48,448 nucleotides of DNA from a virus, in the IMG/VR virus record IMGVR_UViG_3300049846_002530, positions 1 to 48,448 of that record; one strand, 5' to 3'. A model generated the notes under the pieces. That model made no database searches. It saw nothing but the letters and a program-made list of their open reading frames with translations, and had not been told where the DNA came from. Below, in pieces: positions 19,628 to 48,448 of this stretch; position 1 is the first letter of the stretch, and each line of letters opens with the position of its first letter. Both the position numbers and the translations under genes were made by a program.

Positions 19628-20815
19628 TTATTCCTTAGATTGAATCCAGACCGCGCCGTCCTTTTGGACAAGCTCGATTTGCTTCGATACCACACAGGCA
19701 TTGAGAGCTTCTTCAAACTCCCGGTAGGACATAAAGCGGAAGCAGTGGCGGAAGAGGTCCTGGGTCTTGATGAACTTGTGGGTTCGCACCAAGGCGAGAA
19801 CTTCTGTTGAATGCTTTGCCTGGCCTTCAACCCCGATGAAGTCAAAGACCTCCGTCATGTTGTCCTCTAAACCAGTTACGATATCTGCGGCAGCCGCCAG
19901 CTCCTCTTCCGTAATAACCAGTGAGTCACCTTTGGCGGCAGAGAGAACCATAGCCAGCTTGTGAATGTGGGTTTGCTTGCGAGCAAGGTAACCTCCAAAG
20001 CGATTGTTGTCAAGGTGTTTAGGTCGGTTAGTGTAATGGTTTTCATACCACTGCTCCCCGAAACGGAGAGCCGAAGCGGAGAGAGTAACTGGACCCCTGA
20101 GGTTGGCAATGATCTCAAGATCGTGGACAAGATCTTGTTGCAGACGCTTAAATTCAGGTGGGAGGATAGCGGAAGGATAAGCGACAAGCCTTCGCTTCTG
20201 CTTAGCAAACACGAATATACACCGGGAGGTAAATCCGCCCCCGATGAGATATTCAGGGAAACTCCCTGCGATCCAGCCAGGAGTAGTACAGGCTGCGATA
20301 TTGATCCAGGGATTTTCGATCCGATCAGAACCTTGAGTTTTAGTCTGTTTTTCCCAGACTCCGAGTTGTCCGTCCCATAGGCTGACGAGAACATCTACCA
20401 TCTCCCTGTCGTTTGGGTTAAAGAATGTTCCAAGTTCGGACGAAGCGATACTGATACACGACATAGGATGGTACGAGCCATCCGGCATCAGCACCGCCTC
20501 GTTCGCCCCCGCAAGGGCTTGAGTAAGTGCCTGCCAAGTAACAGCGTCCGGTCCAAACTTGATACCCTCGATCTGTCTCAATAAGTTCGCACCAATAGAG
20601 AGTGTCGTGGACTTGGAGACAATTCCAGGGGGCGCTACTAGTATCAAGTACATATTCGGCGTCCACTGAAAATATCCCTGGTCGATCCATACTCGTCTCC
20701 GTAAAGCTCCAGCGATTGTCCACGCACCCACCCAGAAGTGCATGGAGTCGGGAGCTTCGCTGAACGCGGAGTATTGCATATACCCCTTGAGAAAGTCAGG
20801 AAAGCGCCGTTGCAT
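19628..20815 (-). CDS. DUF3987-type replicative helicase/ATPase
   Basis: 395 aa from the ATG at 20815; a TTG four codons upstream is possible. The N-terminus MQRRFPDFLKGYMQYSAFSEAPDSMHFW and the P-loop-like VAPPGIVSKSTT at about residues 60-71 resemble DUF3987 proteins, regarded as phage helicases or primase-helicases. The loop lacks the glycine normally found before the Lys. An IASSELGTFF segment may be the Walker B side. The C-terminus looks like a winged-helix tail. It follows the polymerase by 37 bases and is the only obvious helicase. No separate primase was seen. Confidence 0.6.
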   Translation of the reverse strand: MQRRFPDFLKGYMQYSAFSEAPDSMHFWVGAWTIAGALRRRVWIDQGYFQWTPNMYLILVAPPGIVSKSTTLSIGANLLRQIEGIKFGPDAVTWQALTQALAGANEAVLMPDGSYHPMSCISIASSELGTFFNPNDREMVDVLVSLWDGQLGVWEKQTKTQGSDRIENPWINIAACTTPGWIAGSFPEYLIGGGFTSRCIFVFAKQKRRLVAYPSAILPPEFKRLQQDLVHDLEIIANLRGPVTLSASALRFGEQWYENHYTNRPKHLDNNRFGGYLARKQTHIHKLAMVLSAAKGDSLVITEEELAAAADIVTGLEDNMTEVFDFIGVEGQAKHSTEVLALVRTHKFIKTQDLFRHCFRFMSYREFEEALNACVVSKQIELVQKDGAVWIQSKE

Positions 20816-20818
20816 AGT

Positions 20819-20850
20819 TGCTACCAAGTTGGTCCATAACTCGCTACCAT
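20819..20850 (+). repeat. Dispersed regulatory-type element, copy E1
   Basis: TGCTACCAAGTTG, six variable bases, then AACTCGCTACCAT. All 26 non-spacer bases and the 6-base spacing are identical to the copy at 29261-29292 on the other strand. GCTACC occurs as a direct repeat around an AAGTT/AACT inverted repeat. E1 lies immediately upstream of the helicase start, between it and the polymerase gene, so it may act as an operator or internal control site. Confidence 0.75.
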
Positions 20851-20852
20851 CT

Positions 20853-23222
20853 TCACTTGCAGTCGCCCCAACTCACACAGGAGCGCTTGCCACCAACGGG
20901 GAGGATGAGGGGAGTGGGGTATGGAATGCTGACGAGCATATCCTGACGGATTTTATCAAACAATCCAGGGGTATTCTTAGGCCATTGAAAGACAGCGGAG
21001 TCGTGAACCTGAAGGAGAAACTGAACACCGGCGGAGCGATTCCTGTCGATGACCTGCATTATGCCCAGATTGACAGCAATTGCGACGGTAGACTGAGGTA
21101 TCCACGCAAGAGCTTCCTTGAGGATACCCTCGATGCGGTCAAAGTAAAACCGTCGATAGCCAAAAGCGTTCTCGACATAGCGCCGACTTGTAATTTGAGC
21201 GAGAGTCCTTCGATGCCATTCGGCGATTGCTGGATGTGCATCAAACCAGCGGCGCTGAAATCGTTCTGCCTCGTGGCGGGTGATGCCAAGGGCAGTGGCG
21301 AGAACGGGAGGGGTACCTCCATAGTTAGTGAGATGAACACCGGTTTTCGCGGCTTGGCGATTAGGGTCATCCTTCCCTTTGCAATGACCGAAGATCGTCG
21401 CTGTGTTTTCGTTGTGTAGATCTCGAGAGGGATCGTTGAAGAGTTCCATGAGCGGCTCGTCGTTCGCTTCCCAAGCGACAACCCGCGCGTCAGCTTGAGC
21501 AGCATCGAAATCTCCAATTTCGCACCCTTCGTCTGGAATGAAAAGCTTCCGTAGATTCGGGAGAGGGAACTCTGCGCTTCTTTCGTCTCCAGATGAGACG
21601 TTCTGCAGATTAGTTCCGAATCCGAAAGCATCTTCAGAGGAGGCGAAGCGGAAAGTTTCTGTTCCAGCGATATTGTAGCTGCAGCGGATTCGTCCGTCAG
21701 AGTCGATAGGCTGGGCACAGAATGAACGGAAATTGCTGAGCTGTCTGATTTGATTGATGGCAGCGCAGATAGGGCGCAGGATCGGGTCGGCCTTGGCGAA
21801 AGAGTCAAGCGCATCTGCGTTGGTCGTCGGACGACGGGTCTTGCGGTCGACGATGACTGGGAGCTGGAGTTCTTCATAGAAGAGCCTCTGGAGTTGCTTG
21901 GGTGAGCGGGGGTTGAGCGGGGCGCCAAGGACTGTGTTGAGGAATGTCTGTCGCTTAGATTCTTCCTCGGTGAGGGTGAAGACGAGTTGCGTTCGCGCCT
22001 TCAGGTCCAGACGGACGCCGCGCAGCATAGCCTCGAGGACATATGGAAAGAGGCGGTGCTGAATTTCCGGTGGTGTACCAAAGGGGGTAGTTTTAAGGGC
22101 AATCTGTTTTTCAACGGTCTCGAGAGTTTCAGCAGCTTCCAAGGTGTAGGTGGTATCCTTACAATTGTAGATCCACCGCTGTTCCTCTGGAATGTGTTCG
22201 TCAACCTCCTTACCTTCATCCTTCCAGTAGGTATAGTTCTCACAATAGAGCGAAGCGATATAGTCAAGGGACTTGGGAGTACCTGGGAAATGAACATGGT
22301 GCTGCAGCATGGTATCCATGTGCAGGCGGGCGATTACACCGAATTCTTTGCAGATGTACTGCTGGTCATACGCCCAGTTCTGTCCGATAACTTTAACCTT
22401 TTGAAGGAGGTTGCGGATTTCAAGACGGATGGTGAGTTCTTCCTCTTCCGTCCAGTAAGAGTGCGGCGCTTCCCGTTTGGAGAATGGGATGCAGATGGCT
22501 TTCTCTTTTGTCCAGGCGAATGAAATACAGTCGATGCGACCTCGGCTAGTTTCAATGTCGACTGAGACCTTATCGGTAAGGAGTGGAATTTGAGCAAGCC
22601 AATGCATCGCCGTGCTGAAGTCAGGGCGGATAATATATGACTCAGGTCGGACAATGAGGTGTTCGTAATCCGCTTCCCTGGCTGCTCTCCGAAGGTCATG
22701 GACCGTAATCCACCGCCAACTCCACTGCTTGAGAACAGTGGCAGGGTGATAGGTGGGAAGTACTTTATATGATCTGTCTCCCACAAGTCGAGATTTAATA
22801 CAGGAGCCTCGCCACTTGGCGATGGAGTCACGACCACAGAGATAAGATAAGACCTCATCTGAAAGGGCGATAATGAGGTTGGGCTTGATGAGGTCGATTT
22901 CTTTTTCGAGTTCTTCAATCCCCTCCGCAAGCCAAGGGTGGACCCAGCCGAGGTCTGTTGGGATGTAGTCCGCTGGTGGGATCTTGCCTTCGTAGATCCA
23001 GTTTTCAAGGTCATTCCAGGGTGGCCTCCGCTTGCAGATGTTGGTGAGATAAACCTCCGAGCGGAGGATACCGGCTTCATTTAGCATCTTGGTCAGCTCA
23101 ACTCCAGCCGAACCGGAGAAGGGCGTGAGACTGGACTCGTCAGTTTTGCCGGGGGCGTCGCCGACGATCATGATCTTAGCATCATGTGGTCCTCGACCAG
23201 AGACCTTGGGTACTACTGCCAT
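20853..23222 (-). CDS. Uracil-DNA glycosylase / family A DNA polymerase fusion
   Basis: 789 aa from the ATG at 23222, chosen over a TTG at 23249 because GGAGG lies 5 bases before it. Residues 1 to about 185 are a family 4/5-like UDG: GDAPG (21-25), PFSGSAG (34-40) and TYHPA (157-161). The usual N-terminal Fe-S cysteines are not evident. Next comes a 3'-5' exonuclease (VDIET with D222 and E224; YNCKDTTYT). The polymerase domain has motif A D573-AAQ-AD578, motif B R622..K626..H630..Y634 and motif C H740-D741. Residue H630 replaces the Phe/Tyr of bacterial PolA, and D578 replaces the usual Glu. UDG-PolA fusions are known in some phages such as SPO1. This is the replicative polymerase and probably removes or surveys uracil in the template. 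Confidence 0.9.
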   Translation of the reverse strand: MAVVPKVSGRGPHDAKIMIVGDAPGKTDESSLTPFSGSAGVELTKMLNEAGILRSEVYLTNICKRRPPWNDLENWIYEGKIPPADYIPTDLGWVHPWLAEGIEELEKEIDLIKPNLIIALSDEVLSYLCGRDSIAKWRGSCIKSRLVGDRSYKVLPTYHPATVLKQWSWRWITVHDLRRAAREADYEHLIVRPESYIIRPDFSTAMHWLAQIPLLTDKVSVDIETSRGRIDCISFAWTKEKAICIPFSKREAPHSYWTEEEELTIRLEIRNLLQKVKVIGQNWAYDQQYICKEFGVIARLHMDTMLQHHVHFPGTPKSLDYIASLYCENYTYWKDEGKEVDEHIPEEQRWIYNCKDTTYTLEAAETLETVEKQIALKTTPFGTPPEIQHRLFPYVLEAMLRGVRLDLKARTQLVFTLTEEESKRQTFLNTVLGAPLNPRSPKQLQRLFYEELQLPVIVDRKTRRPTTNADALDSFAKADPILRPICAAINQIRQLSNFRSFCAQPIDSDGRIRCSYNIAGTETFRFASSEDAFGFGTNLQNVSSGDERSAEFPLPNLRKLFIPDEGCEIGDFDAAQADARVVAWEANDEPLMELFNDPSRDLHNENTATIFGHCKGKDDPNRQAAKTGVHLTNYGGTPPVLATALGITRHEAERFQRRWFDAHPAIAEWHRRTLAQITSRRYVENAFGYRRFYFDRIEGILKEALAWIPQSTVAIAVNLGIMQVIDRNRSAGVQFLLQVHDSAVFQWPKNTPGLFDKIRQDMLVSIPYPTPLILPVGGKRSCVSWGDCK

Positions 23223-23293
23223 TTGTGCCTCCAATACCAGCCGACGCAAACGCCAGCGTAAAAGGCGAGGATGCCGATGATAAGGCTGCTCAT
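23213..23293 (-). CDS. 26-aa membrane microprotein between methyltransferase and polymerase genes
   Basis: A short frame, ATG at 23293 and TAG at 23213, codes 26 residues: MSS, a hydrophobic segment (LIIGILAFYAGVCVGWYW) and a basic end (RHKWQ). Its ATG overlaps the stop of the ParB-methyltransferase gene (ATGA) with GGAGGG 7 bases upstream. Its last 10 bases overlap the polymerase start. The tight double overlap, good ribosome site and clean single-TM pattern with a positive C-terminus argue that it is translated. Function unknown. Confidence 0.6.
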   Translation of the reverse strand: MSSLIIGILAFYAGVCVGWYWRHKWQ

Positions 23294-24582
23294 TGCATTC
23301 CCTCCGATAGCATTACTCGGATGGCAGCTGCATAAGTGGGCGACAGTTCGATACCAGTTGCTCGTAGGCCAGCAAGTTTGGCCGCTCGAAAAACAGTCCC
23401 GGACCCTGCGCAGGGATCGAGTACTTCCTCTCCAGGTAGGAAGGAAAGGTCCATAAGCTTCTTATAAAGTTCCACAGGTTTTTGGGCCGCATGAGACTTA
23501 TCTGTGGTCGCCGGGAATTCCAGAACGTCAGAACTGGAATTTCGCAGTTTTCGGCTGCCCTTCTGGGCGAAGAGGATCGCCTCGTAGCGACGCAGAAAAT
23601 AGCCTGGCTGTGGAGCGTGGCCCAGGTTTGGCTTATGCCAGATAAGCGGCGTTGGGTAACAGTACCATCCGCACTCAGAGGCAAGGTCACAGAGCTTAGG
23701 CCAGACTCGGATATCACAAAACATATAAAGGTGTGCGTCGGCTTTGCAAAGATCATAGCCTGTTACCAGAATGTTGGTGATAAGGTCAAGGGCGGATTCC
23801 TGATCGTCGGCGTATTGATGATCAAGCTTGAAGGTTTGATCCCCGAAGGTATCTGCGTCGATACCGTAAGGCGGGTCTACGATGATGCCACTGAATCTAC
23901 CGACGCCGAGAAATTTCATCTGCTCATCAGCGCTACCTTCGATCAGGGTGAAGTCTTTGGAGGAGACTGTGCAGAGGGCACCAAGGCCTTCCATGAATTG
24001 AGCTTCGAGCTTCTTTTTGGCGATCTTGACAGCCTCAGCCTTGGTCGCCGCCTTCTTCACATCTGGGTCTTGGGCGAAGCTGTCGAGGAGGATGGCGTCT
24101 CCGACCTCCTTGGCACGCGGGGGATCAGTTCGAGCGTCAGAATCACCTCGTACTTCGTCAAGTATTCGTCCAGTATCTGTCTTTGTCCAGGTTCCAGAGG
24201 GTGCGTTGCTGGCGAGATAAGAATGGAGTTTGGCAATAGCTTGAGCTTCCTCAACGGGAGAGAGGTTCTTTCTTCGAAGGTTTTCTTCCAGCTCAATGCG
24301 GAATAGCTGTACAGAATCGAGTCCATCAACAATGATAACTGGAATTTGTCCAGCCGGAATTTGGTCTGTGCCATAACGGTAAGGCTCGATAAGGGTTCGG
24401 ATGGCGGAGAGACGGCAGAAGCCAGCGACGAGTTCACCTTCCTTGGTGATGGTGACTGCGTGGATTAAGCCATCGGTGGCGATAGATTTAGCGAGTTCCT
24501 TGATGTGCTTTTCCGAGGGGTCCTTGCGTTGGCGTTCAGCCGAGACAAGGATGGCATCAACCGGAAGCTTGAGAATTGTCAT
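23290..24582 (-). CDS. ParB-like domain fused to DNA methyltransferase
   Basis: 430 aa. Residues 1 to about 110 are ParB/Srx-like (ATDGLIHAVTITKEGELVAGFCRLSAIR). After a linker, residues about 205-425 form an N6-adenine or N4-cytosine methyltransferase. Motif IV DPPYG is at 236-240, KPVEL at 368-372, and the SAM-binding motif I DPCAGSGT at 389-396. The order IV then I is that of the beta group. Such ParB-MTase fusions are common in phages and may protect DNA from host restriction. No cognate nuclease gene is adjacent, so it looks like an orphan enzyme. Its stop overlaps the 26-aa microprotein. Confidence 0.9.
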   Translation of the reverse strand: MTILKLPVDAILVSAERQRKDPSEKHIKELAKSIATDGLIHAVTITKEGELVAGFCRLSAIRTLIEPYRYGTDQIPAGQIPVIIVDGLDSVQLFRIELEENLRRKNLSPVEEAQAIAKLHSYLASNAPSGTWTKTDTGRILDEVRGDSDARTDPPRAKEVGDAILLDSFAQDPDVKKAATKAEAVKIAKKKLEAQFMEGLGALCTVSSKDFTLIEGSADEQMKFLGVGRFSGIIVDPPYGIDADTFGDQTFKLDHQYADDQESALDLITNILVTGYDLCKADAHLYMFCDIRVWPKLCDLASECGWYCYPTPLIWHKPNLGHAPQPGYFLRRYEAILFAQKGSRKLRNSSSDVLEFPATTDKSHAAQKPVELYKKLMDLSFLPGEEVLDPCAGSGTVFRAAKLAGLRATGIELSPTYAAAIRVMLSEGMQ

Positions 24583-28799: not shown

Positions 28800-29057
28800 T
28801 TATGACTCCTCCCGCGAAGGGGCGGGACTCGTGGACATTGTGGCATGGGTGGACACAGATTGCAAGTCTTTTCTCTCCAGTTCTAACTCCATCCGTTCGA
28901 GCATATGGGCGACTACACGCTGAAATGCGGTGATTACAGCCGCCCGATGCGCGCCGCGAAGTTCTTCACGATCATAGGTGGATTCGATCTGATGGATTCT
29001 TCCATCTTTAATCCCTGTGACCGTGAGGGTGATCTGATCAAACTTGAGTAGACTCAT
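28800..29057 (-). CDS. Small hypothetical protein
   Basis: 85 aa from the ATG at 29057. The first half is beta-like (LLKFDQITLTVTGIKDGRIHQIESTYD) and the middle is a helix (GAHRAAVITAFQRVVAHMLERMELELERK). The open frame extends far upstream, but that part is antisense-like and overlaps the RHH-like gene. With this start the overlap is 20 bases. No family recognised. Confidence 0.6.
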   Translation of the reverse strand: MSLLKFDQITLTVTGIKDGRIHQIESTYDREELRGAHRAAVITAFQRVVAHMLERMELELERKDLQSVSTHATMSTSPAPSREES

Positions 29058-29262
29058 GAGTTTTTGTTCTCTGGTAAAGGTGGGCAACGTGTTCGTCCAG
29101 GTCTCGGCGAAGGAGGCCGAGAAAGTACTTGGAGATTGCTCCATACTTGGTTGTGCCGGAAGGGTCCTGGAGTTCTGGGCGGAGAAGGATGAGTTCAGCG
29201 TAGAGAGTCTCCGGGACACGAAGGTGGACCGAACGTGTGGGTCCGATGCTTGGGTTTGCCAT
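29038..29262 (-). CDS. Ribbon-helix-helix-like small protein
   Basis: 74 aa. The pattern RSVHLRVPETLYAELILLRPELQDPSG...GAISKYFLGLLRRDLDEH, a short strand followed by two helices, fits a ribbon-helix-helix DNA-binding fold. The start ATG is the last part of the 32-bp dispersed element E2, which would suit autoregulation by its own product. GAGGAG lies 12 bases upstream, a little far. RHH proteins commonly bind short tetramer boxes in arrays, so this is one candidate binder of the GTCT array at 32.9-33.2 kb. That link is an inference only. Confidence 0.55.
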   Translation of the reverse strand: MANPSIGPTRSVHLRVPETLYAELILLRPELQDPSGTTKYGAISKYFLGLLRRDLDEHVAHLYQRTKTHESTQV

Positions 29263-29742: not shown

Positions 29743-30281
29743 GGCTTCACTGATGCGCGGACCGCCGCGTCGATAGCCTTGGCTTCATCCTCGCTGCACA
29801 TCCGGGCGTACTTCTCGTTACGTCCCATGTCGCAGCCGCTGTCCGGCTCCCAACATTCCTCGGTGTGTTGATGCACAGCCGGTGCGCTGCACTCTGGGCA
29901 GGGCTGGTCGCCGCGCAAGTCCGGCACGACTCCGTGACCGTTGCAGCGGGAGCAGACAGCCGGTGCGCTGTCAGCGGGTCTGTACCAGCCGCAAACTTCG
30001 TCTAAGACCCAGCCATTGTCGATCAATGCCTGCACAGCCTGAGCGTGTACCCTGCGTGTTAACGCAAGCATCTGATCCGCCTCGGCCAGCTGCGCCTCTC
30101 GGTCAGCGAGCAAGGTGCTGATGCCCTTACGCAGCAGCACCGCTGCGTCACGCTCGGCCTCAACGTGGGCCAGCCGCGCCGTGAGGGCGTCTAGTTCTGC
30201 TTGCGCTTGTTCTGCACCAGCCGTCACCTTGGCTTCTTTCAAGAACTTAATCGCTTGTTGAATCCAGTAGGTATCACTCAT
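29739..30281 (-). CDS. Coiled-coil protein with DnaJ-type zinc motif, GC-rich
   Basis: 180 aa. Residues about 20-75 are an Ala/Glu-rich coiled coil. Residues about 108-131 contain CSRCNGHG...CPEC, like the cysteine-rich repeats of DnaJ. More Cys and His follow (HQHTEECWEPDSGCDM). The gene is very GC-rich: 44 of 60 bases at 29881-29940 and 43 of 60 at 30121-30180, against about half in the flanking genes. That suggests recent acquisition from a high-GC phage or host. Its start overlaps the preceding gene by 8 bases. Function unknown. Confidence 0.65.
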   Translation of the reverse strand: MSDTYWIQQAIKFLKEAKVTAGAEQAQAELDALTARLAHVEAERDAAVLLRKGISTLLADREAQLAEADQMLALTRRVHAQAVQALIDNGWVLDEVCGWYRPADSAPAVCSRCNGHGVVPDLRGDQPCPECSAPAVHQHTEECWEPDSGCDMGRNEKYARMCSEDEAKAIDAAVRASVKP

Positions 30282-30597
30282 GACTCGCTGACTCCTGTGC
30301 TGTTGCGCTATCAGCTTGTGCCTTTAGCGCTCTGATTTGCTCTTTCCAAGCTGAGGGCTTGGTTGAGAGAATCCACAGGCTGTCGTTCTTTTGCTCTACA
30401 GAGAGCTCAATCGTATCGTATACCGTTCCTGCTGCGCCGAGTTCCTTTCTGTAGAGAGAACGAAAACCATAGAGCCTGTGGCGGAAGTTAACTGCTTTTC
30501 CCCTGGTATCAAAAGAAAGGGAGAGCTTGCCCTCCTTGGCAAGCTCCCAAGCCATCATGAATTCCTCAGGGAAATCGCTGAGCTTTTTCTCAGCCAT
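30274..30597 (-). CDS. Hypothetical protein
   Basis: 107 aa with N-terminal helix (KLSDFPEEFMMAWELAKEGKLSLSFDTRGKAVNFRHRLYGFRSLYRKEL) and a central segment DTIELSVEQKNDSLWILSTKPS. The C-terminal end is Ala/Ser-rich. The pattern of a basic helix followed by a beta strand recurs in several small phage proteins, but I do not recognise a family. Overlaps of 8 bases at both ends place it firmly in the operon. Confidence 0.65.
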   Translation of the reverse strand: MAEKKLSDFPEEFMMAWELAKEGKLSLSFDTRGKAVNFRHRLYGFRSLYRKELGAAGTVYDTIELSVEQKNDSLWILSTKPSAWKEQIRALKAQADSATAQESASHE

Positions 30598-31492: not shown

Positions 31493-32308
31493 CTAAATCT
31501 CCTCAGGCTTGAATTCGATCAGGGTTGACGGGGCGAGTGCACTTTCCTCTGCCTTGATGATGGGGATAATCGTAGGCGGAGCAAGTGCAGACGGGGCGAA
31601 GTCGGAGCTTGCGGAGAGTAAGCCAAGCCCCTGTAAAGTGGACGAGCTGGCTGATATCGCCAGGTCGATTGGTGAATTCGGCGAAGAAGTCTGTAATGAG
31701 TCTGGGTCCATGCTGGATGTATTTAACATCAGCCCATTGGGATTCTCTAACGTGAATCTTGGCTCCGACGAGATGTGTGAGTTCTGGTCGATCTTGGATT
31801 GAGGTGATACGATAGAAGCCAGCTGTGAGATTAGCATATCTTCTAGGCATTGTGATTGGTCCGGCAGGGAGCCCTGCGTCTCGTGGAAACAAAGGTGGCA
31901 GAAGGGTGTGGTCAATTTGACTGTCTCTCTTACGCGAGGCAGAGAGATAGCTGACGAGAGTGAACTTCGAGAAGGCAGATAGCGGAATGAACTGTTGTCC
32001 TTCTGCAGTCGTTCTTTGATGAACGTCTCTGGCCAATGAGCGCAGGTGCTCACGGTTCCACATCCGCTGCAGTGCGTTTCCCGGAGAAACATGACTCGGG
32101 CGATTGGCCGCCAGTTTTGACTTTGCCATCTGAGTGCTATCTCCTGGGCTGGAGTGAGTTTGGGGTCATCTGGAAGTTTGTGATTCTTCGCTGGCTTGGT
32201 CTGGTGGGCGCGAGAGATTTTCTCCGCCTGATGGTCTGCTGGGGTTTCTCCCAAGAGGGCGAGAACCTTGCGCATCGCCTCAGAGACAGGCTTGAGTTTG
32301 TCACTCAT
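31493..32308 (-). CDS. Hypothetical zinc-binding protein
   Basis: 271 aa from the ATG at 32308 with GAGGAG 8 bases upstream; the frame is open much further, but that part is antisense-like and overlaps the next gene. The N-terminal part is basic and helical (SEAMRKVLALLGETPADHQAEK). The middle has HCSGCGTVSTCAHW and later FCHLCFHE, a probable zinc site. The C-terminal 120 residues are Ser/Pro-rich and low-complexity. The first 8 bases overlap the gene upstream. It is the second gene of the leftward operon, so probably an early protein; function unknown. Confidence 0.6.
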   Translation of the reverse strand: MSDKLKPVSEAMRKVLALLGETPADHQAEKISRAHQTKPAKNHKLPDDPKLTPAQEIALRWQSQNWRPIARVMFLRETHCSGCGTVSTCAHWPETFIKERLQKDNSSFRYLPSRSSLSSAISLPRVRETVKLTTPFCHLCFHETQGSLPDQSQCLEDMLISQLASIVSPQSKIDQNSHISSEPRFTLENPNGLMLNTSSMDPDSLQTSSPNSPIDLAISASSSTLQGLGLLSASSDFAPSALAPPTIIPIIKAEESALAPSTLIEFKPEEI

Positions 32309-32738
32309 ACTCTGGCTCCTCTGGTTCAGCCTCGGGGCCATCGAACTCAGCAGGAGGGGGACAAATGTCAGGCCTGCGCTCGTCCCATTCACAGTCGAGG
32401 CAAGTATACCATTCATGCGTTTCGCTGGACTTGAGTTCCAGCCTGGTCCCGCCGCAGCGAGGACAGTGACCATCCTCGATGCAACTGCAGAGGTCTCTGA
32501 TCTGCATTGGCCAGTAGAGGCCGCTGCCGAAGGGCGCACCGTTGTCGGTGTACTCCAACTGACCGCCACCCATGCACTTTGGGCAGTGTTTGGGCCAGGC
32601 GGCGATCCAACAGTCTGAACAAGTCTCCCCCTTAATCCCATGTGGGCAGAGTTCGATATGTTCCACCTCGAGGGCAGGGTCGCCGTCAACAATCTGGTAT
32701 TCAATTGAACCAGCGTTGTGCTCGAAGTAAGTAGGCAT
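32301..32738 (-). CDS. First gene of leftward operon: multi-zinc-ribbon protein
   Basis: 145 aa from the ATG at 32738 with AGGAG 9 bases upstream. Cysteine pairs: CPHG...CSDC, CPKC, CSC...CPRCGG and CLDC, enough for two or three zinc ribbons. The C-terminus is very acidic (PEAEPEEPEYE). Zinc ribbons plus an acidic tail often occur in transcription- or replication-associated proteins. It is the first product made from the promoter at 32792-32820, close to the dyad array, so it is a candidate for the regulator or origin-binding factor. That is inference only. Confidence 0.65.
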   Translation of the reverse strand: MPTYFEHNAGSIEYQIVDGDPALEVEHIELCPHGIKGETCSDCWIAAWPKHCPKCMGGGQLEYTDNGAPFGSGLYWPMQIRDLCSCIEDGHCPRCGGTRLELKSSETHEWYTCLDCEWDERRPDICPPPAEFDGPEAEPEEPEYE

Positions 32739-32791
32739 TGTGGTTATCTCCTGATCTCCAAATACCGGGGGAAATTCCCAGGTAACGGCGC

Positions 32792-32820
32792 ATTGTACCA
32801 TGTTGGATTGTAGAATGCAA
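32792..32820 (-). promoter_or_regulatory. Sigma70-type promoter of the leftward early operon
   Basis: On the minus strand TTGCAT (32820-32815), a 17-base spacer and TACAAT (32797-32792). That is 4 of 6 and 5 of 6 consensus positions with ideal spacing. It is about 54 bases upstream of the first gene start (32738). It lies just left of the dyad array, so proteins bound there could control it. Confidence 0.7.
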
Positions 32821-32980
32821 CCATTATTTTCGCCGCCTGCCGCGGCCGCCAGCCGCCAGCTGGCCAAACGGGCGGCGGAGATGTGGGGTGCTGATTGGCG
32901 TCTACATTGGCGTCTAACAGAGGTCTGCCCGCGGTCTGACAGAGGTCTGAGAACGTCTGAAAATGGGGTACCCCCATGTA

Positions 32981-32993
32981 TGCTACCAAGTTG
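32981..32993 (+). repeat. Half copy of dispersed element (E3), left of the A/T tract
   Basis: TGCTACCAAGTTG, identical to the first half of E1 and E2. It lies inside the dyad region, mirrored in position by E4 at 33058-33070. Confidence 0.7.
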
Positions 32994-33056
32994 AAATCCT
33001 CTGACCCCCCTTCTTCAGATTATAAAAAAAATATATATAGTAACTGGGAGAGCAAC

Positions 33057-33070
33057 ATGGTAGCGACTTG
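33057..33070 (-). repeat. Half copy of dispersed element (E4), right of the A/T tract
   Basis: Minus strand CAAGTCGCTACCAT, matching the second half of E1 and E2 (AACTCGCTACCAT) at most positions. Its position mirrors E3 about 33025.5 within one base, so the two half-elements bracket the A/T tract. Confidence 0.6.
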
Positions 33071-33232
33071 GAGAACGGGGGGTGGCAGAAGTAGACGGAC
33101 TCAGACCGAGGTTAGACCGCTCGCAGACCTCCATGTAGACCTCTCGTAGACGCCAACCAGACCCACACATCTGCGCCCGATTGGGGTGACTAAGGCCCAG
33201 GGGCCGCGCCGCCTAATCGCAGGCAAAAGAAA

Positions 33233-33260
33233 GGGGAGGCTGGATTTCTCCAACCTCCCC
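33233..33260 (-). terminator. Rho-independent terminator after the 33276-33752 gene
   Basis: Minus strand GGGGAGGTTGG, loop AGAAAT, CCAGCCTCCCC (11-bp stem with one mismatch or wobble), followed by TTTCTTTT. It begins 16 bases after the stop at 33276 and would stop leftward transcription before the dyad array. Confidence 0.85.
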
Positions 33261-33275
33261 GATCTTCTCCTGTGG

Positions 33276-33752
33276 TTAGCCGTTCGCTTCTGCTGCCGCG
33301 TCCGCTTCCGCCTTGGCGAGCTTCGCCGTCTCGCGTTCGAGCTTGATCTTCTGAATCGCGACCCGAACCTTCGCCTTCTTCTGGAGATCCTTCTTCTCCT
33401 CGTCCGACAGGTTCTCGATATACGCTGCCGCATCCTCGAGGCTCTGTCCACTGACCGCCGCGAAGGCCTGCACCAGAATGCTGACCCGCGAACCGCCACC
33501 GCCACCAGCCGCGCGCCATGCGCCATTGTACAGCTGTTCGATGGTATCCCTGACGCATTCCTTTGCGAACGATTCAGGGTCCGATTCCGAACCCGCACCA
33601 GCATAACTGTCGCCGATCTTCTGGCTCAGTCCGTGGAACATTGCCTGCAGCCGGATCTCCTCGGAGAGCTTGCTGACTTCGAGAGTTTGCACGGAGCCAT
33701 CGGCTGCCGTGAACGTCAGGACACCAGCCGCCACATCATAGGCTTTCTTCAT
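33276..33752 (-). CDS. Hypothetical protein, isolated leftward gene
   Basis: 158 aa with AGGTGA 5 bases upstream. The N-terminal half has beta strands (GVLTFTAADGSVQTLEVSKL) and helices. A Gly run (GGGGG) follows near residue 83, and the C-terminal 45 residues are Ala/Lys/Glu-rich coiled coil. It has its own terminator and is separated from both large operons, lying right of the dyad array. The Ala/Gly/charged pattern is seen in small early phage proteins of unknown role. A function at the origin is conceivable but not shown. Confidence 0.7.
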   Translation of the reverse strand: MKKAYDVAAGVLTFTAADGSVQTLEVSKLSEEIRLQAMFHGLSQKIGDSYAGAGSESDPESFAKECVRDTIEQLYNGAWRAAGGGGGSRVSILVQAFAAVSGQSLEDAAAYIENLSDEEKKDLQKKAKVRVAIQKIKLERETAKLAKAEADAAAEANG

Positions 33753-34138: not shown

Positions 34139-34753
34139 ATGTTCCTTGCGAGAGCGGCCGCCCCGCATTTGCCTGGGATTAAGAAGGTGGGGATCAAGCA
34201 TGAAGCGATCCTTAACTTCCTCTTGGCTCACCCGAATGTAAAAATGCGGGAGGTTGCGGAGCACTTCCAGGTCAGCCAGCCGTGGCTTTCGCTCATCATT
34301 CATTCGGATGCCTTCCAGCGTCTCCTGCGGGAGCGCCAAGATGTACACTTCCACGTCTCCATCCTGCCGATGATGGGGAAGATGGAGGTCGCGGCGGAGA
34401 AGGCGATTGATCGGATGATTGAGCTGATTCCGTTTGAGACGGACCTTGGGAAGCTTAATCAAGTGGCGGATAAGGCCCTGAATCGACTGGGCTATGGGAC
34501 GTCAAACGTCCAGCAGATTCAGGCGGACGTCCAGGTTCGCTCGGAGAGATCGGCGCTCGAGCGGGCGAGGACACTGATTGGAGCGCGGCCTAAGGCTGCA
34601 GCTCTTGAGGGTGAGGTAGTGTATGAAGCTGGACTTGCCAGCGAGGTGCAAGAGGGTAGAGACGGCGCAGTGGGTGAAACACCTCAGGTCGCCGCCTCCG
34701 TTTCCCCTGAAGCCCCCCACATCGGCTCGAGCGAAGCAGGGGGTTCGGTATGA
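34139..34753 (+). CDS. terS: Terminase small subunit
   Basis: 204 aa with GGAGG upstream. Residues about 20-55 contain a helix-turn-helix (VKMREVAEHFQVSQPWLSLIIHSDAF), followed by a long central helix region (ILPMMGKMEVAAEKAIDRMIELIPFE) for ring oligomerisation. The C-terminal 60 residues are acidic and low-complexity. It recognises phage DNA and delivers it to the large subunit. The position before the nuclease and large terminase supports this. The last 131 bases overlap the next gene in another frame. Confidence 0.8.
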   Translation: MFLARAAAPHLPGIKKVGIKHEAILNFLLAHPNVKMREVAEHFQVSQPWLSLIIHSDAFQRLLRERQDVHFHVSILPMMGKMEVAAEKAIDRMIELIPFETDLGKLNQVADKALNRLGYGTSNVQQIQADVQVRSERSALERARTLIGARPKAAALEGEVVYEAGLASEVQEGRDGAVGETPQVAASVSPEAPHIGSSEAGGSV

Positions 34754-38513: not shown

Positions 38514-38757
38514 TCTGGCGTCGCTCCTCGAGACGCCCGGTTGGAAGTGGCTTATGCAAGTTGCAGAAAGTCAGATCGAGGGGAGAAAGCAAGCGGTGTT
38601 CCTGCAGCCCTTGCGATCTATGGATGAAGCGTTTGCGCAGGAGTTTGCCAAGGGAGAAATCTCTGGTATTGAATTGTTCCGGCAGTTGGTCGGCATCCGC
38701 GTTGGAGAGCTGACGGAAGAGATTACGAGGAGAACGGATGATGAAGACGAGGAATAG
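38461..38757 (+). CDS. Small hypothetical protein between portal and scaffold
   Basis: 98 aa from GTG at 38461 with GGAGGC 5 bases upstream; a TTG at 38449 is also possible. It is helical and acidic (LRDLQEERFNLASLLETPGWKWLMQVAESQIEGRKQAVFLQPLRSMDEAFAQEFAKGEISGIELFRQL) and ends with DDEDEE. Proteins of this size and pattern lie between portal and scaffold in related phages; a role in head assembly is likely but not defined. Overlaps both neighbours. Confidence 0.65.
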   Translation: MEEEQDRDLRDLQEERFNLASLLETPGWKWLMQVAESQIEGRKQAVFLQPLRSMDEAFAQEFAKGEISGIELFRQLVGIRVGELTEEITRRTDDEDEE

Positions 38758-39682
38758 ACTGATGAATGCAGTTGAGGGTGATATCCCTCAGACTGGCGGT
38801 GGTGTTGGCGGCACTGAGAATGGCACGGTGGCGGCCGAGCTTGAAGATTCTACACTTTTTGCGGAACTCGCGGAACACGACGAGTACGCAGAGCCTGAAC
38901 TTGAGGGGGCGGCAGCGCTTGAAGCGTCGAGCGCGCCCGCGCCTGAGAGCCAGCCGCAGGGGACTCCGCCGACTCCTCCTGCAGCCGCTACTCCGGAACA
39001 GCCAGCGCCGGTTACGCAACCGACCGCTGTCGCTCCCTCAACCCCCGAGCAGCCTACGCCCGCTTCGGCAGCTGCGCCGGAACCTGCACCAGCGACGTCT
39101 CCTGACGAGCCGGTGACCCTTGAGAAGCATCGTGCGGAATTCCTCCCGAAGCTGCAGGAGCTGTACAAGCTGTCTCCTGAAGAGGCGGAGGAGTTGCGAG
39201 TTGAGCCTGAAAAGGCCTTGCCTAAGTTGGCCGCGACTCTGCACTATGAGGTGCTGACGTCTGCGTACAACTCCGTACTGAGTGTCTTGCCGAATCTTGT
39301 GGGACAATACCTCGAACAGCAGAAGGCAATTACTGCACATGAGGAAAGGTTCTACAATCGGTGGGGTGCGTTGAAGGATCCGAAGTATTTGGGCACTGTG
39401 GTTTCTTCTGTCAAGGCATATCGGGCGGCAAACCCGAAGGCCTCGCAGGAGGAGGTTATTGAGCGGGCAGGATTGATGGCAATGTTGACCTTGGGGTTGA
39501 ATCCTCAGGGAGAGACGCCGCCGCCAACTCCTTCGCAGCCTGCACCCGCAGCACCCAGGCCAGCTATTCCGGCAGGAGCGGGCTTCGGCTCGGCTCCTTT
39601 CCAGACTGGTGGGCAGAATACGACTGGTCCGGTTGACGATATCCAGGCACTCATTGAAGCGGAAATGGCAGGGCAAATCTAA
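38738..39682 (+). CDS. Scaffolding protein
   Basis: 314 aa with GAGGAG 5 bases upstream. The first 125 residues are acidic and Pro/Ala-rich, then a helical part (TLEKHRAEFLPKLQELYKLSPEEAEEL) and a C-terminal end with Pro/Ala linker. The composition, low-complexity acidic N-terminus and location directly before the major capsid gene fit an internal scaffold that guides capsid assembly and is later removed. The large antisense frame over this region is not a gene. Confidence 0.75.
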   Translation: MMKTRNRLMNAVEGDIPQTGGGVGGTENGTVAAELEDSTLFAELAEHDEYAEPELEGAAALEASSAPAPESQPQGTPPTPPAAATPEQPAPVTQPTAVAPSTPEQPTPASAAAPEPAPATSPDEPVTLEKHRAEFLPKLQELYKLSPEEAEELRVEPEKALPKLAATLHYEVLTSAYNSVLSVLPNLVGQYLEQQKAITAHEERFYNRWGALKDPKYLGTVVSSVKAYRAANPKASQEEVIERAGLMAMLTLGLNPQGETPPPTPSQPAPAAPRPAIPAGAGFGSAPFQTGGQNTTGPVDDIQALIEAEMAGQI

Positions 39683-39709: not shown

Positions 39710-40915
39710 ATGGCTTATTTTGCAGGCCTTCGTGGTACCGGCTCCTTCGGCGCAGATGAACGTCCGAAGAACTTCCGGGAAATGATCCTCTGGATGAACC
39801 CCAACGGCAGCGCCCCGCTGTTCGCCCTCACGTCGAAGGCGAAGACGGAGTCTGTGGATGACCCGGAGTTCAGCTGGTGGGAAGAGACGAATACGATCTG
39901 CCGTCTGCGTCTGAACGACGCAACGAACATGATTGCAGGCGATACGACCTTCGTCGTGGATGAAGGTGCGCTTCAGCTGATTCCTGGTGACATTCTCCAG
40001 GTTGAAGGAACTGAGGCGACCGCGTACACGAACGAACTGATCCGTGTGACCAGCGTTACGAATGACACGACCTTCGTGGCCGCTCGTGGCGTGGCTGGTA
40101 CTACGGCAGGGGCGATTGCGGATGATACCTACTTCACCCGCATCGGTAACGCCCAGTCGGAAGGTGGTCGTTCGATCACTTCGAGCAGCACCAACCCGAC
40201 GAAGCTCAGCAACTTCTGTCAGATCTTCAAGACGCCGTATCAGATCACGAAGTCGGCCCTGGCCATTCGTACTCGTACTGGCGACCCGAAGAAGAACGAG
40301 CAGAAGCGTAAGAGCTTCCAGCACGCGGAAAAGATCGAGCAGACCCTGCTGTGGGGTAAGCCGTATGAGACGACGGATGCAGGCAACGGCAATATGCCGC
40401 TGCGGTTCACTGGTGGCCTTCGCCACTTCGTGACCAGCAACCGGAAGGTCTACACGGCAGACCCGACGATCGACACGTTCCTGAATGACATCTATCCGGT
40501 CTTCGACTATGAGGCTGGTGGTGCAGGTAACGAGCGCCTGGTGTTCCTCGGCAATGGTGCCTTGAATCACCTGAACAAGCTCGTTCGAGCTGAGACGAAC
40601 GCGCGGATCAACTACGACGGTACGACCGAGTTCTACGGGATGAAGCTCCAGAAGTGGACGATTCCGCAGGGCACGCTGTACCTGAAGAGCCACCCGCTGA
40701 TGAATGTCCATCCGGTCTATACCAACTCGATGTTCGTCGTGAACCCGAGTGGGATTATCTATCGTCCGCTCAAGGGACGCGATACGAAGGTCGAGAAGGA
40801 CATTCAGGAAAACGACGCTGACTACGTGAAGGACCAGTGGCTCACGGAGTGCGGCTTCGAGTTCCACTATGAGCGGACCTTCGCGTACATCGGCGGCTTC
40901 AAGGATTGGCCGTAA
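39710..40915 (+). CDS. Major capsid protein (DUF5309-like)
   Basis: 401 aa, well-expressed style codon use. N-terminus FAGLRGTGSFGADERPKNFREMILWMNPNGSAPLFALTSK and later FCQIFKTPYQITKSALAIRTRTG, EQTLLWGKP, and PLMN.HPVYTNSMFVVNP match DUF5309-type major capsid proteins, a variant of the HK97 fold. It builds the icosahedral shell. Downstream of the scaffold by 27 bases with GAGG upstream. Confidence 0.85.
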   Translation: MAYFAGLRGTGSFGADERPKNFREMILWMNPNGSAPLFALTSKAKTESVDDPEFSWWEETNTICRLRLNDATNMIAGDTTFVVDEGALQLIPGDILQVEGTEATAYTNELIRVTSVTNDTTFVAARGVAGTTAGAIADDTYFTRIGNAQSEGGRSITSSSTNPTKLSNFCQIFKTPYQITKSALAIRTRTGDPKKNEQKRKSFQHAEKIEQTLLWGKPYETTDAGNGNMPLRFTGGLRHFVTSNRKVYTADPTIDTFLNDIYPVFDYEAGGAGNERLVFLGNGALNHLNKLVRAETNARINYDGTTEFYGMKLQKWTIPQGTLYLKSHPLMNVHPVYTNSMFVVNPSGIIYRPLKGRDTKVEKDIQENDADYVKDQWLTECGFEFHYERTFAYIGGFKDWP

Positions 40916-47559: not shown

Positions 47560-48448
47560 ATGTCTTTCAGTTGCGACGGCGCTAATGACTATGCCTATTG
47601 CACCTCCTCGCCCATTTCAGGTTATGGGTCAGGTTTTTCTATTGTCGCCTGGGTAAAACAGGAAGTTCTCACTAATGCGAGGGCTCTTGTTGGTTTGACG
47701 ACGACAGCGAATGCTACGTCAACGACCGGTAGTGCCTTGGTTGATATGGTGGGAATTAGAACTGATCCAGAAGTGACAGTTGGCAATGGCGCGCGTCCGA
47801 CAGCTATGGTAGCTGATGCGACAAACCAGCGATATGCCACTCGCCCTGATTCTGCTGGAGGTCTACTGACGACTGACTGGAATCTGCTTGTCGGCCTTTT
47901 TAACAGCAGCACGTCCAGACAGATTGTGTACAATGCGGATTATCCTGGCAATACACATACTTCTGCAGCGACTACGCCTAGCGCGGCGCTGACGAATATC
48001 ATCATCGGTGCTGGTGTGAATAGAAGCGCCACAGGTGGTCCGTCAAATGACTTTAACGGTAAGCTGGCGCACATTGCCCTTTATGGGAATATCCTGACTG
48101 AGGCGCAGATTGATGCGCTTTATGCTGGAGAAAATCCCCTGCAGGTAAACACTGCGAATTTGCTTGCCTATTATCCGCCTGGGACTGATATCGACAGTTC
48201 GTTGCTGGATTTGGTTGGTGGGTATAACCTTACCAAGTTCGGTAACATTGCCTACAGTGCGGATAATCCTACGGTCAATGCGCCTAGGCCGATTATCTCC
48301 TCTGTCAGCGACTCGACTTATTTCGATGGTGAGACGGGGATTGTGATTACCGGCTTGGGATTCGCTCAGACGCAGGGCACTGGTTCAGTTATCATCAGTC
48401 CAACAGATAATGTTAATGATGCAGCTGCGGTAACTCAGACAGTTACTT
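47560..48448 (+). CDS. Lectin-like/IPT-like adhesin, N-terminal part (continues at position 2)
   Basis: The frame begins with ATG at 47560, 8 bases after the tailspike stop, and runs off the window end. It continues in frame at position 2 and ends at 361, for 360 aa in all. Residues 1 to about 210 follow a laminin-G/concanavalin-like pattern (FSIVAWVKQE, TDWNLLVGLFN, GKLAHIALYGNILTEAQIDALY), typical of LamG-like sugar-binding domains. The rest is the IPT-like domain described at 2-361. It belongs to the adhesin block. At 48409 the repeat copy codes Asn where the left copy codes Asp. Confidence 0.8.
   Translation, partial: MSFSCDGANDYAYCTSSPISGYGSGFSIVAWVKQEVLTNARALVGLTTTANATSTTGSALVDMVGIRTDPEVTVGNGARPTAMVADATNQRYATRPDSAGGLLTTDWNLLVGLFNSSTSRQIVYNADYPGNTHTSAATTPSAALTNIIIGAGVNRSATGGPSNDFNGKLAHIALYGNILTEAQIDALYAGENPLQVNTANLLAYYPPGTDIDSSLLDLVGGYNLTKFGNIAYSADNPTVNAPRPIISSVSDSTYFDGETGIVITGLGFAQTQGTGSVIISPTDNVNDAAAVTQTVT
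48282..48448. repeat. Terminal overlap, right copy
   Basis: Same sequence as 1-167 apart from A at 48409 (G at 128). It shows that the window is one full turn of a circular map. Confidence 0.9.

Follow-up and report, generated by a model that had tools for sequence, protein, structure and literature searches.

The viral record IMGVR_UViG_3300049846_002530, whose whole 48,448-nucleotide stretch was analysed and is referred to here as the window, carries an intergenic dyad element (32874-33177, axis 33025.5) in which very short boxes, repeated in step with the helix, form two arrays that face each other in inverted orientation across a central A/T run, an architecture that recurs in related phages within a constant gene neighbourhood. 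Because relatives keep this architecture but not the letters of the boxes, comparison at the sequence level supports well the view that the dyad is a symmetric cis element, one that would be bound cooperatively around a meltable tract. Two arrays facing each other across an opening region would suit forks leaving in opposite directions, and the dyad stands at the head of a replication-type early operon; it is from this anatomy and gene linkage that we propose, as the function we hold on balance to be probable, a bidirectional, iteron-like replication origin.

Two phased arrays of short boxes mirror each other across an A/T run

The original prediction had placed six GTCT boxes to the left and seven AGAC boxes to the right of the axis, and every one of these coordinates proved exact (Table 1). 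Six of the right-hand AGAC boxes mirror the left array, the outermost (33159) being unpaired, and when the pairs are taken from the inside outward their recomputed midpoints fall at 33025.5 in five cases and at 33026.0 in the sixth, in agreement with the predicted mirroring within half a base of 33025.5. The axis likewise falls inside the 21-base A/T run, as had been claimed. On the outer side, TTGGCGTCTAC at 32896-32906 and its complement at 33146-33156 both lie inside 32-nt inverted arms (32874-32905 and 33146-33177) that are 84% complementary. Between the arrays and the A/T run, the predicted half-elements are present on both sides, but their mirroring is rough, with hand-counted midpoints at 33023 for GCTACCA/TGGTAGC, 33028.5 for CCAAGT/ACTTGG and 33043.5 for CCCCCC/GGGGGG.

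Table 1. Coordinates of the dyad components and of the early genes discussed in the text
Feature	Position	Strand	Description
Replication module, end of early operon	19628..23249	-	DUF3987 protein 19628-20827; family-A DNA polymerase 20853-23249
RHH-like protein	29038..29262	-	74 aa; candidate box-binder
Second early family member	30274..30597	-	a related gene is the neighbour of the dyad in eight of the genomes examined; a further candidate binder
Zinc-ribbon-like gene	32301..32738	-	cysteine-rich; first gene of the leftward early operon
Left phased array	32896..32958	+	GTCT x6: 32900, 32912, 32923, 32934, 32945, 32955; spacings 12, 11, 11, 11, 10
Left inner elements	32982..33010		GCTACCA 32982-32988; CCAAGT 32986-32991; CCCCCC 33005-33010
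Central A/T run ATTATAAAAAAAATATATATA	33019..33039		21 bases, contains A8; presumed melting tract
Right inner elements	33058..33082		TGGTAGC 33058-33064; ACTTGG 33066-33071; GGGGGG 33077-33082
Right phased array	33093..33162	-	AGAC x7: 33093, 33103, 33114, 33125, 33137, 33148, 33159; spacings 10, 11, 11, 12, 11, 11
HGL gene, dyad-adjacent	33276..33752	-	158 aa; conserved family, often two paralogues per genome

The GTCT and AGAC arrays are the only phased tetramer chains of at least five boxes in the 48 kb, and inverted pairs of phased chains with at least eight boxes were absent from three shuffles of 2.45 Mb. A motif-free dyad score, defined as the number of bases covered by inverted 6-mers around each centre, reaches its genome-wide maximum of 107 at 33026, compared with 55 at the runner-up site and a shuffled maximum of 63. 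Given the phasing, the mirror match of the spacings alone has a probability of ~0.2 and is weak evidence; because such a match arises about once in five, the weight of the dyad lies with boxes, phasing and inversion taken jointly.

The GTCT tetramer itself does not stand out as a special motif: an IMG/VR scan for five phased GTCT boxes returned at least 120 matches, a control scan with GTCA likewise returned at least 120 with similar spacer diversity, and this equal behaviour of the control leaves an enrichment of GTCT unsupported. Some of the GTCT matches fall inside genes: unrelated phage contigs (L013, L048, L064, L079, L060, L059, L051, L041 and others) carry GTCT arrays with 11-12 bp spacing within replisome-organiser-like genes; some of these intragenic arrays adjoin DnaB-like helicase genes, and a tract of CTT/ATT/CAT triplets precedes. 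These arrays look like intragenic origin iterons.

The architecture is conserved among relatives while the boxes diverge

No phage record similar to the window at the DNA level was found. Relatives were sought at the protein level, by searches with the terminase and the polymerase that gathered more than 100 contigs, and the regions around genes of the dyad-adjacent family, named HGL for its HGLSQK motif, were then fetched. The dyad was found in 28 genomes, ~18 of them by an unbiased score of at least 65, a value reached by ~5 per 100,000 background bins in a background that itself includes at least one true dyad distant from its locus's HGL gene; the other ten, most of which score 53-64 and one of which (MF497422) scores lower, were identified in part visually, through the core that they share. 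Among the dyad-bearing phages are Vibrio phage vB_VspS_VS-ABTNL-3 and, with a weak dyad, Microcystis phage Mel-JY34.

The box sequence agrees between the two arms inside one genome and differs between genomes, as expected of a single co-evolving binder. It is TGTACG in G001, CCCTA in G004, ATTAGAT in G005, ACCCCGAT in G006, ATTTACC in G013, CTAGAT in G018 and GCCATT in MW202489; TTGTC boxes form arrays of seven plus seven in G026, CCTG boxes form arrays of four plus four with exact mirror spacing in G014, and a GTCT-type box recurs in G047. When 26 dyads are pooled, the autocorrelation of the arms at lags 10-12 and 21 is ~4-6-fold that of shuffled sequence, and it is also raised at 22 and 24. 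The helical period is absent from two dyads, with repeats at 4 and 16 bp in L134 and at 7 and 14 bp in MF497422.

A run of 6-19 A or T occupies the centre of the relatives' dyads; as some genomes have A there and others T, no direction is fixed for the core. Many of them also have a C-run between the left arm and the centre and a G-run between the centre and the right arm. On the plus strand the right arm is purine-richer than the left in 28 of 28 dyads, which places the purine-richer strand outward on both sides, although these do not amount to 28 independent observations because the genomes are related.

The position of the dyad recurs as well, at the head of a polA-type early operon and beside an HGL gene (in G047 the nearest HGL gene lies ~3 kb away), while the first gene of the early operon varies between genomes. 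Two polymerase relatives added after the pattern had been defined served as a prediction test of this arrangement: each has the highest-scoring dyad of its fetched region 0.2-0.6 kb from an HGL gene, with A11 or T16 at the centre. These later relatives (L444/L526, VRUF01000001.1, and L445/L527, QCWB01000003.1) come from bins named Planctomycetota and Nitrososphaera, and the contigs are probably mis-binned phages or a hint at hosts. The original prediction had named relatives that keep the flanking genes but lack the phased boxes or symmetry as grounds for its refutation, and in part this counts against it: layout and symmetry persist with other boxes in many relatives, but several HGL-bearing genomes that keep flanking genes (for example G028, G030, G034, G040 and G041) show no dyad at the sensitivity used.

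The dyad lies between a leftward early operon and the structural genes

The ends of the record, 1-167 and 48282-48448, overlap by 167 bases with a mismatch, and because of this overlap we take the genome to be circularly assembled and apparently complete at ~48.28 kb. The intergenic region that holds the dyad separates the early operon from the packaging and structural genes. To its left, the early operon reads leftward, with the zinc-ribbon-like gene first, followed by small genes and the RHH-like gene, and it also encodes a PD-(D/E)XK-type nuclease, a Sak4-type protein, a ParB-domain methyltransferase, the family-A polymerase and the DUF3987 protein. To its right, an intrinsic terminator (33233-33260) separates the dyad from the HGL gene, which reads toward it, and beyond the HGL gene come rightward-reading genes for the terminase and for a portal and a major capsid protein of SU10 type.

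Several features of these genes may be recorded in passing. The family-A polymerase carries an N-terminal domain of the uracil-DNA glycosylase superfamily that is kept in relatives, and the product of 23290-24582 is a DNA methyltransferase fused to a ParB-type N-terminal domain, with an annotated methyltransferase at the matching position in MF497422, MW202489 and Mel-JY34. In the structural-gene region, a predicted minus-strand tRNA-Glu (39067-39157) overlaps a rightward ORF (38738-39682) and may be a false call.

Candidate box-binding proteins

Three products had been put forward as binders of the boxes: the zinc-ribbon-like protein, the RHH-like protein and the product of the HGL gene. The RHH-like protein emerges as the best of the three and as a plausible candidate box-binder. 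Its family is present in 31 of the 37 relatives searched, and some members bear an RHH signature: in an alignment of 33 members, 2 hit Pfam RHH_3 (PF12651; best E 1.1e-4), and weak PDB profile matches lead to the RHH protein ORF56 and to 2q2k (E 0.94), a chain that we take to be ParR of pSK41. The predicted monomer model of the window protein shows two helices in the expected arrangement; a fold search with this monomer gave no significant match, and comparison of the RHH strand residues with the box letters revealed no clear correspondence. RHH proteins bind short boxes cooperatively, which suits boxes of 4-6 bp at every turn. As a candidate initiator near the dyad, the family is nevertheless missing from some dyad genomes, having gone undetected in the dyad-bearing G006, G008, G009 and MF497422.

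The other two proposals fared less well. The HGL family is widespread among phages and is the most constant neighbour of the dyad, but its confident predicted structure resembles no solved structure; it has no meaningful Pfam match, and 3 of 16 members match phrog_28928, a PHROG without an assigned function. Used alone as a query in viral contigs, the HGL protein retrieved no relatives, and the family alignment is too diverse for use in scanning. The zinc-ribbon-like protein has no Pfam or PHROGs match and belongs to no family shared near other dyads.

Alternative roles for the dyad

The main rival to an origin, though in our judgement an unlikely one, is a symmetric transcription-control region whose arms a phage regulator (perhaps the RHH protein) would use as operators or enhancers to control divergent early and late transcription, looping the central tract. 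Such a role would fit both the location of the dyad at a divergence of transcription in several genomes and the classic cooperative repressors Arc, Mnt and CopG among RHH proteins. In the window, however, where the dyad had been thought to lie beside the early promoter, a sigma-70 scan of 32650-33300 gave no minus-strand site, which leaves that placement unsupported, and its single plus-strand match lies in the A/T tract and faces an antisense-oriented gene. Moreover, the gene on the right reads toward the dyad and is closed off by a terminator before reaching it, the A/T run is found in both orientations, and a promoter region requires neither a 300-bp mirror nor two equal arms.

Packaging provides another possible role, in which small-terminase rings would sit on each phased arm of a pac or genome-end site with the DNA wrapped round a ring of DNA-binding domains. 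An 11-bp period would fit DNA wrapped on a protein ring, and repeated boxes near a small-terminase gene, characteristic of SPP1-type pac sites, are found here too, with a small-terminase-like gene starting at 34139, ~1 kb to the right of the dyad. Yet linkage and co-inheritance with one terminase type were not what we observed: the dyad persists across two terminase types, being kept in G012, G013, G019, G026, G047 and MW202489, all of which are without a phrog_38 large terminase, and ~10 kb of sequence with tail-type genes separates terL from the dyad and HGL gene in L004. Because the dyad survives this change of terminase type, the pac site of one terminase is an improbable identity for it. 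More improbable again is that the window is a plasmid-like prophage and the dyad its partition centromere, with an RHH protein acting like ParR as the binder. In ParR/parC centromeres of R1-type plasmids, RHH ParR proteins bind ~11-bp repeats in two blocks and act with a partner ATPase, and the dyad resembles them in its two arrays of ~11-bp repeats, as does the RHH family in its weak profile match to 2q2k; the parC blocks, however, are arrays of short direct repeats, whereas those of the dyad are mirrored, and no centromere is known to have mirrored arms round a tract of melting type. It would also suit such a role that ParR binding specificity differs among related plasmids (PMC9426499). Against a centromere speak the gene content, which is that of a lytic podovirus-like phage, and the finding of neither a ParA-type ATPase nor a tyrosine integrase in the end-overlapping, apparently complete genome; a search for a ParM-type partner carries no information because its controls were silent.

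A proposed bidirectional origin and its relation to known systems

Anatomy and gene linkage make a replication origin the best reading of the dyad. In the mechanism that we propose, a phage-encoded protein would occupy each arm cooperatively, taking one box per turn along a single face of the helix, so that the bound arms would form two mirror-image nucleoprotein arrays able to bend or unwind the A/T-run centre. The symmetry would then allow two forks to be assembled in opposite directions, serving the family-A polymerase and DUF3987 module, with the RHH protein as a plausible initiator or co-initiator. If initiator specificity evolves fast, relatives would keep the architecture while the box changes in both arms together. 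GC skew, suggested as a marker of an origin at ~33.0 kb, lends this proposal no support in the window, where the detrended skew shows no turn at the dyad; the skew minimum of MF497422 (41278) lies near its dyad at 40725, but it is confounded because it coincides with a change of gene direction.

Iteron origins, such as those of phage lambda and of plasmids P1, RK2 and R6K, have repeated sites beside an A+T-rich opening region, and plasmid iterons are in phase with the helix and replicon-specific in their site sequence (PMC5043065). The dyad shares all of these features, with replicon-specific sites in helical phase in the window and its relatives and an adjacent A+T-rich putative opening region (33019-33039 in the window, the central A/T runs in the relatives). 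Those iterons are mostly grouped in a single block to one side of the A+T region (lambda's within the O gene), whereas the dyad consists of two mirror arrays of 4-7 short boxes on either side of the tract, lying in the window in intergenic DNA. No initiator of O/P, Rep or DnaA type was identified: the genes examined contain no Rep, O or DnaA domain, and no known initiator domain adjoins the dyad. The herpes simplex oriS and the SV40 core origin have inverted initiator sites on either side of an A/T tract, but their sites are few and their initiators are helicases; the dyad resembles them in its inverted sites around an A/T tract, differs in its long phased arrays, and no homology is implied.

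A literature search, from which most subscription journals were out of reach, found no description of this layout. As an origin, the dyad would add a new form to the iteron type. More tentatively, and with confidence well below even, it could represent a new class of phage replicator, whose origin would be mirror-symmetric throughout and built from two arrays of very short boxes in phase with the helix. A small RHH protein would open it in place of an initiator of Rep, O or DnaA type, and its box would change from phage to phage, giving related phages private origins. Were the RHH protein indeed the initiator, it would be of a new and unexpected kind.

The origins of most environmental phages are unmapped, and the layout described here would allow them to be located across a podovirus-like group even though their sequence is not conserved. 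The relatives would at the same time offer a natural series of initiator and box pairs in which to follow changes in origin specificity, and two families, HGL and the early RHH-like proteins, are flagged as candidate replication proteins.
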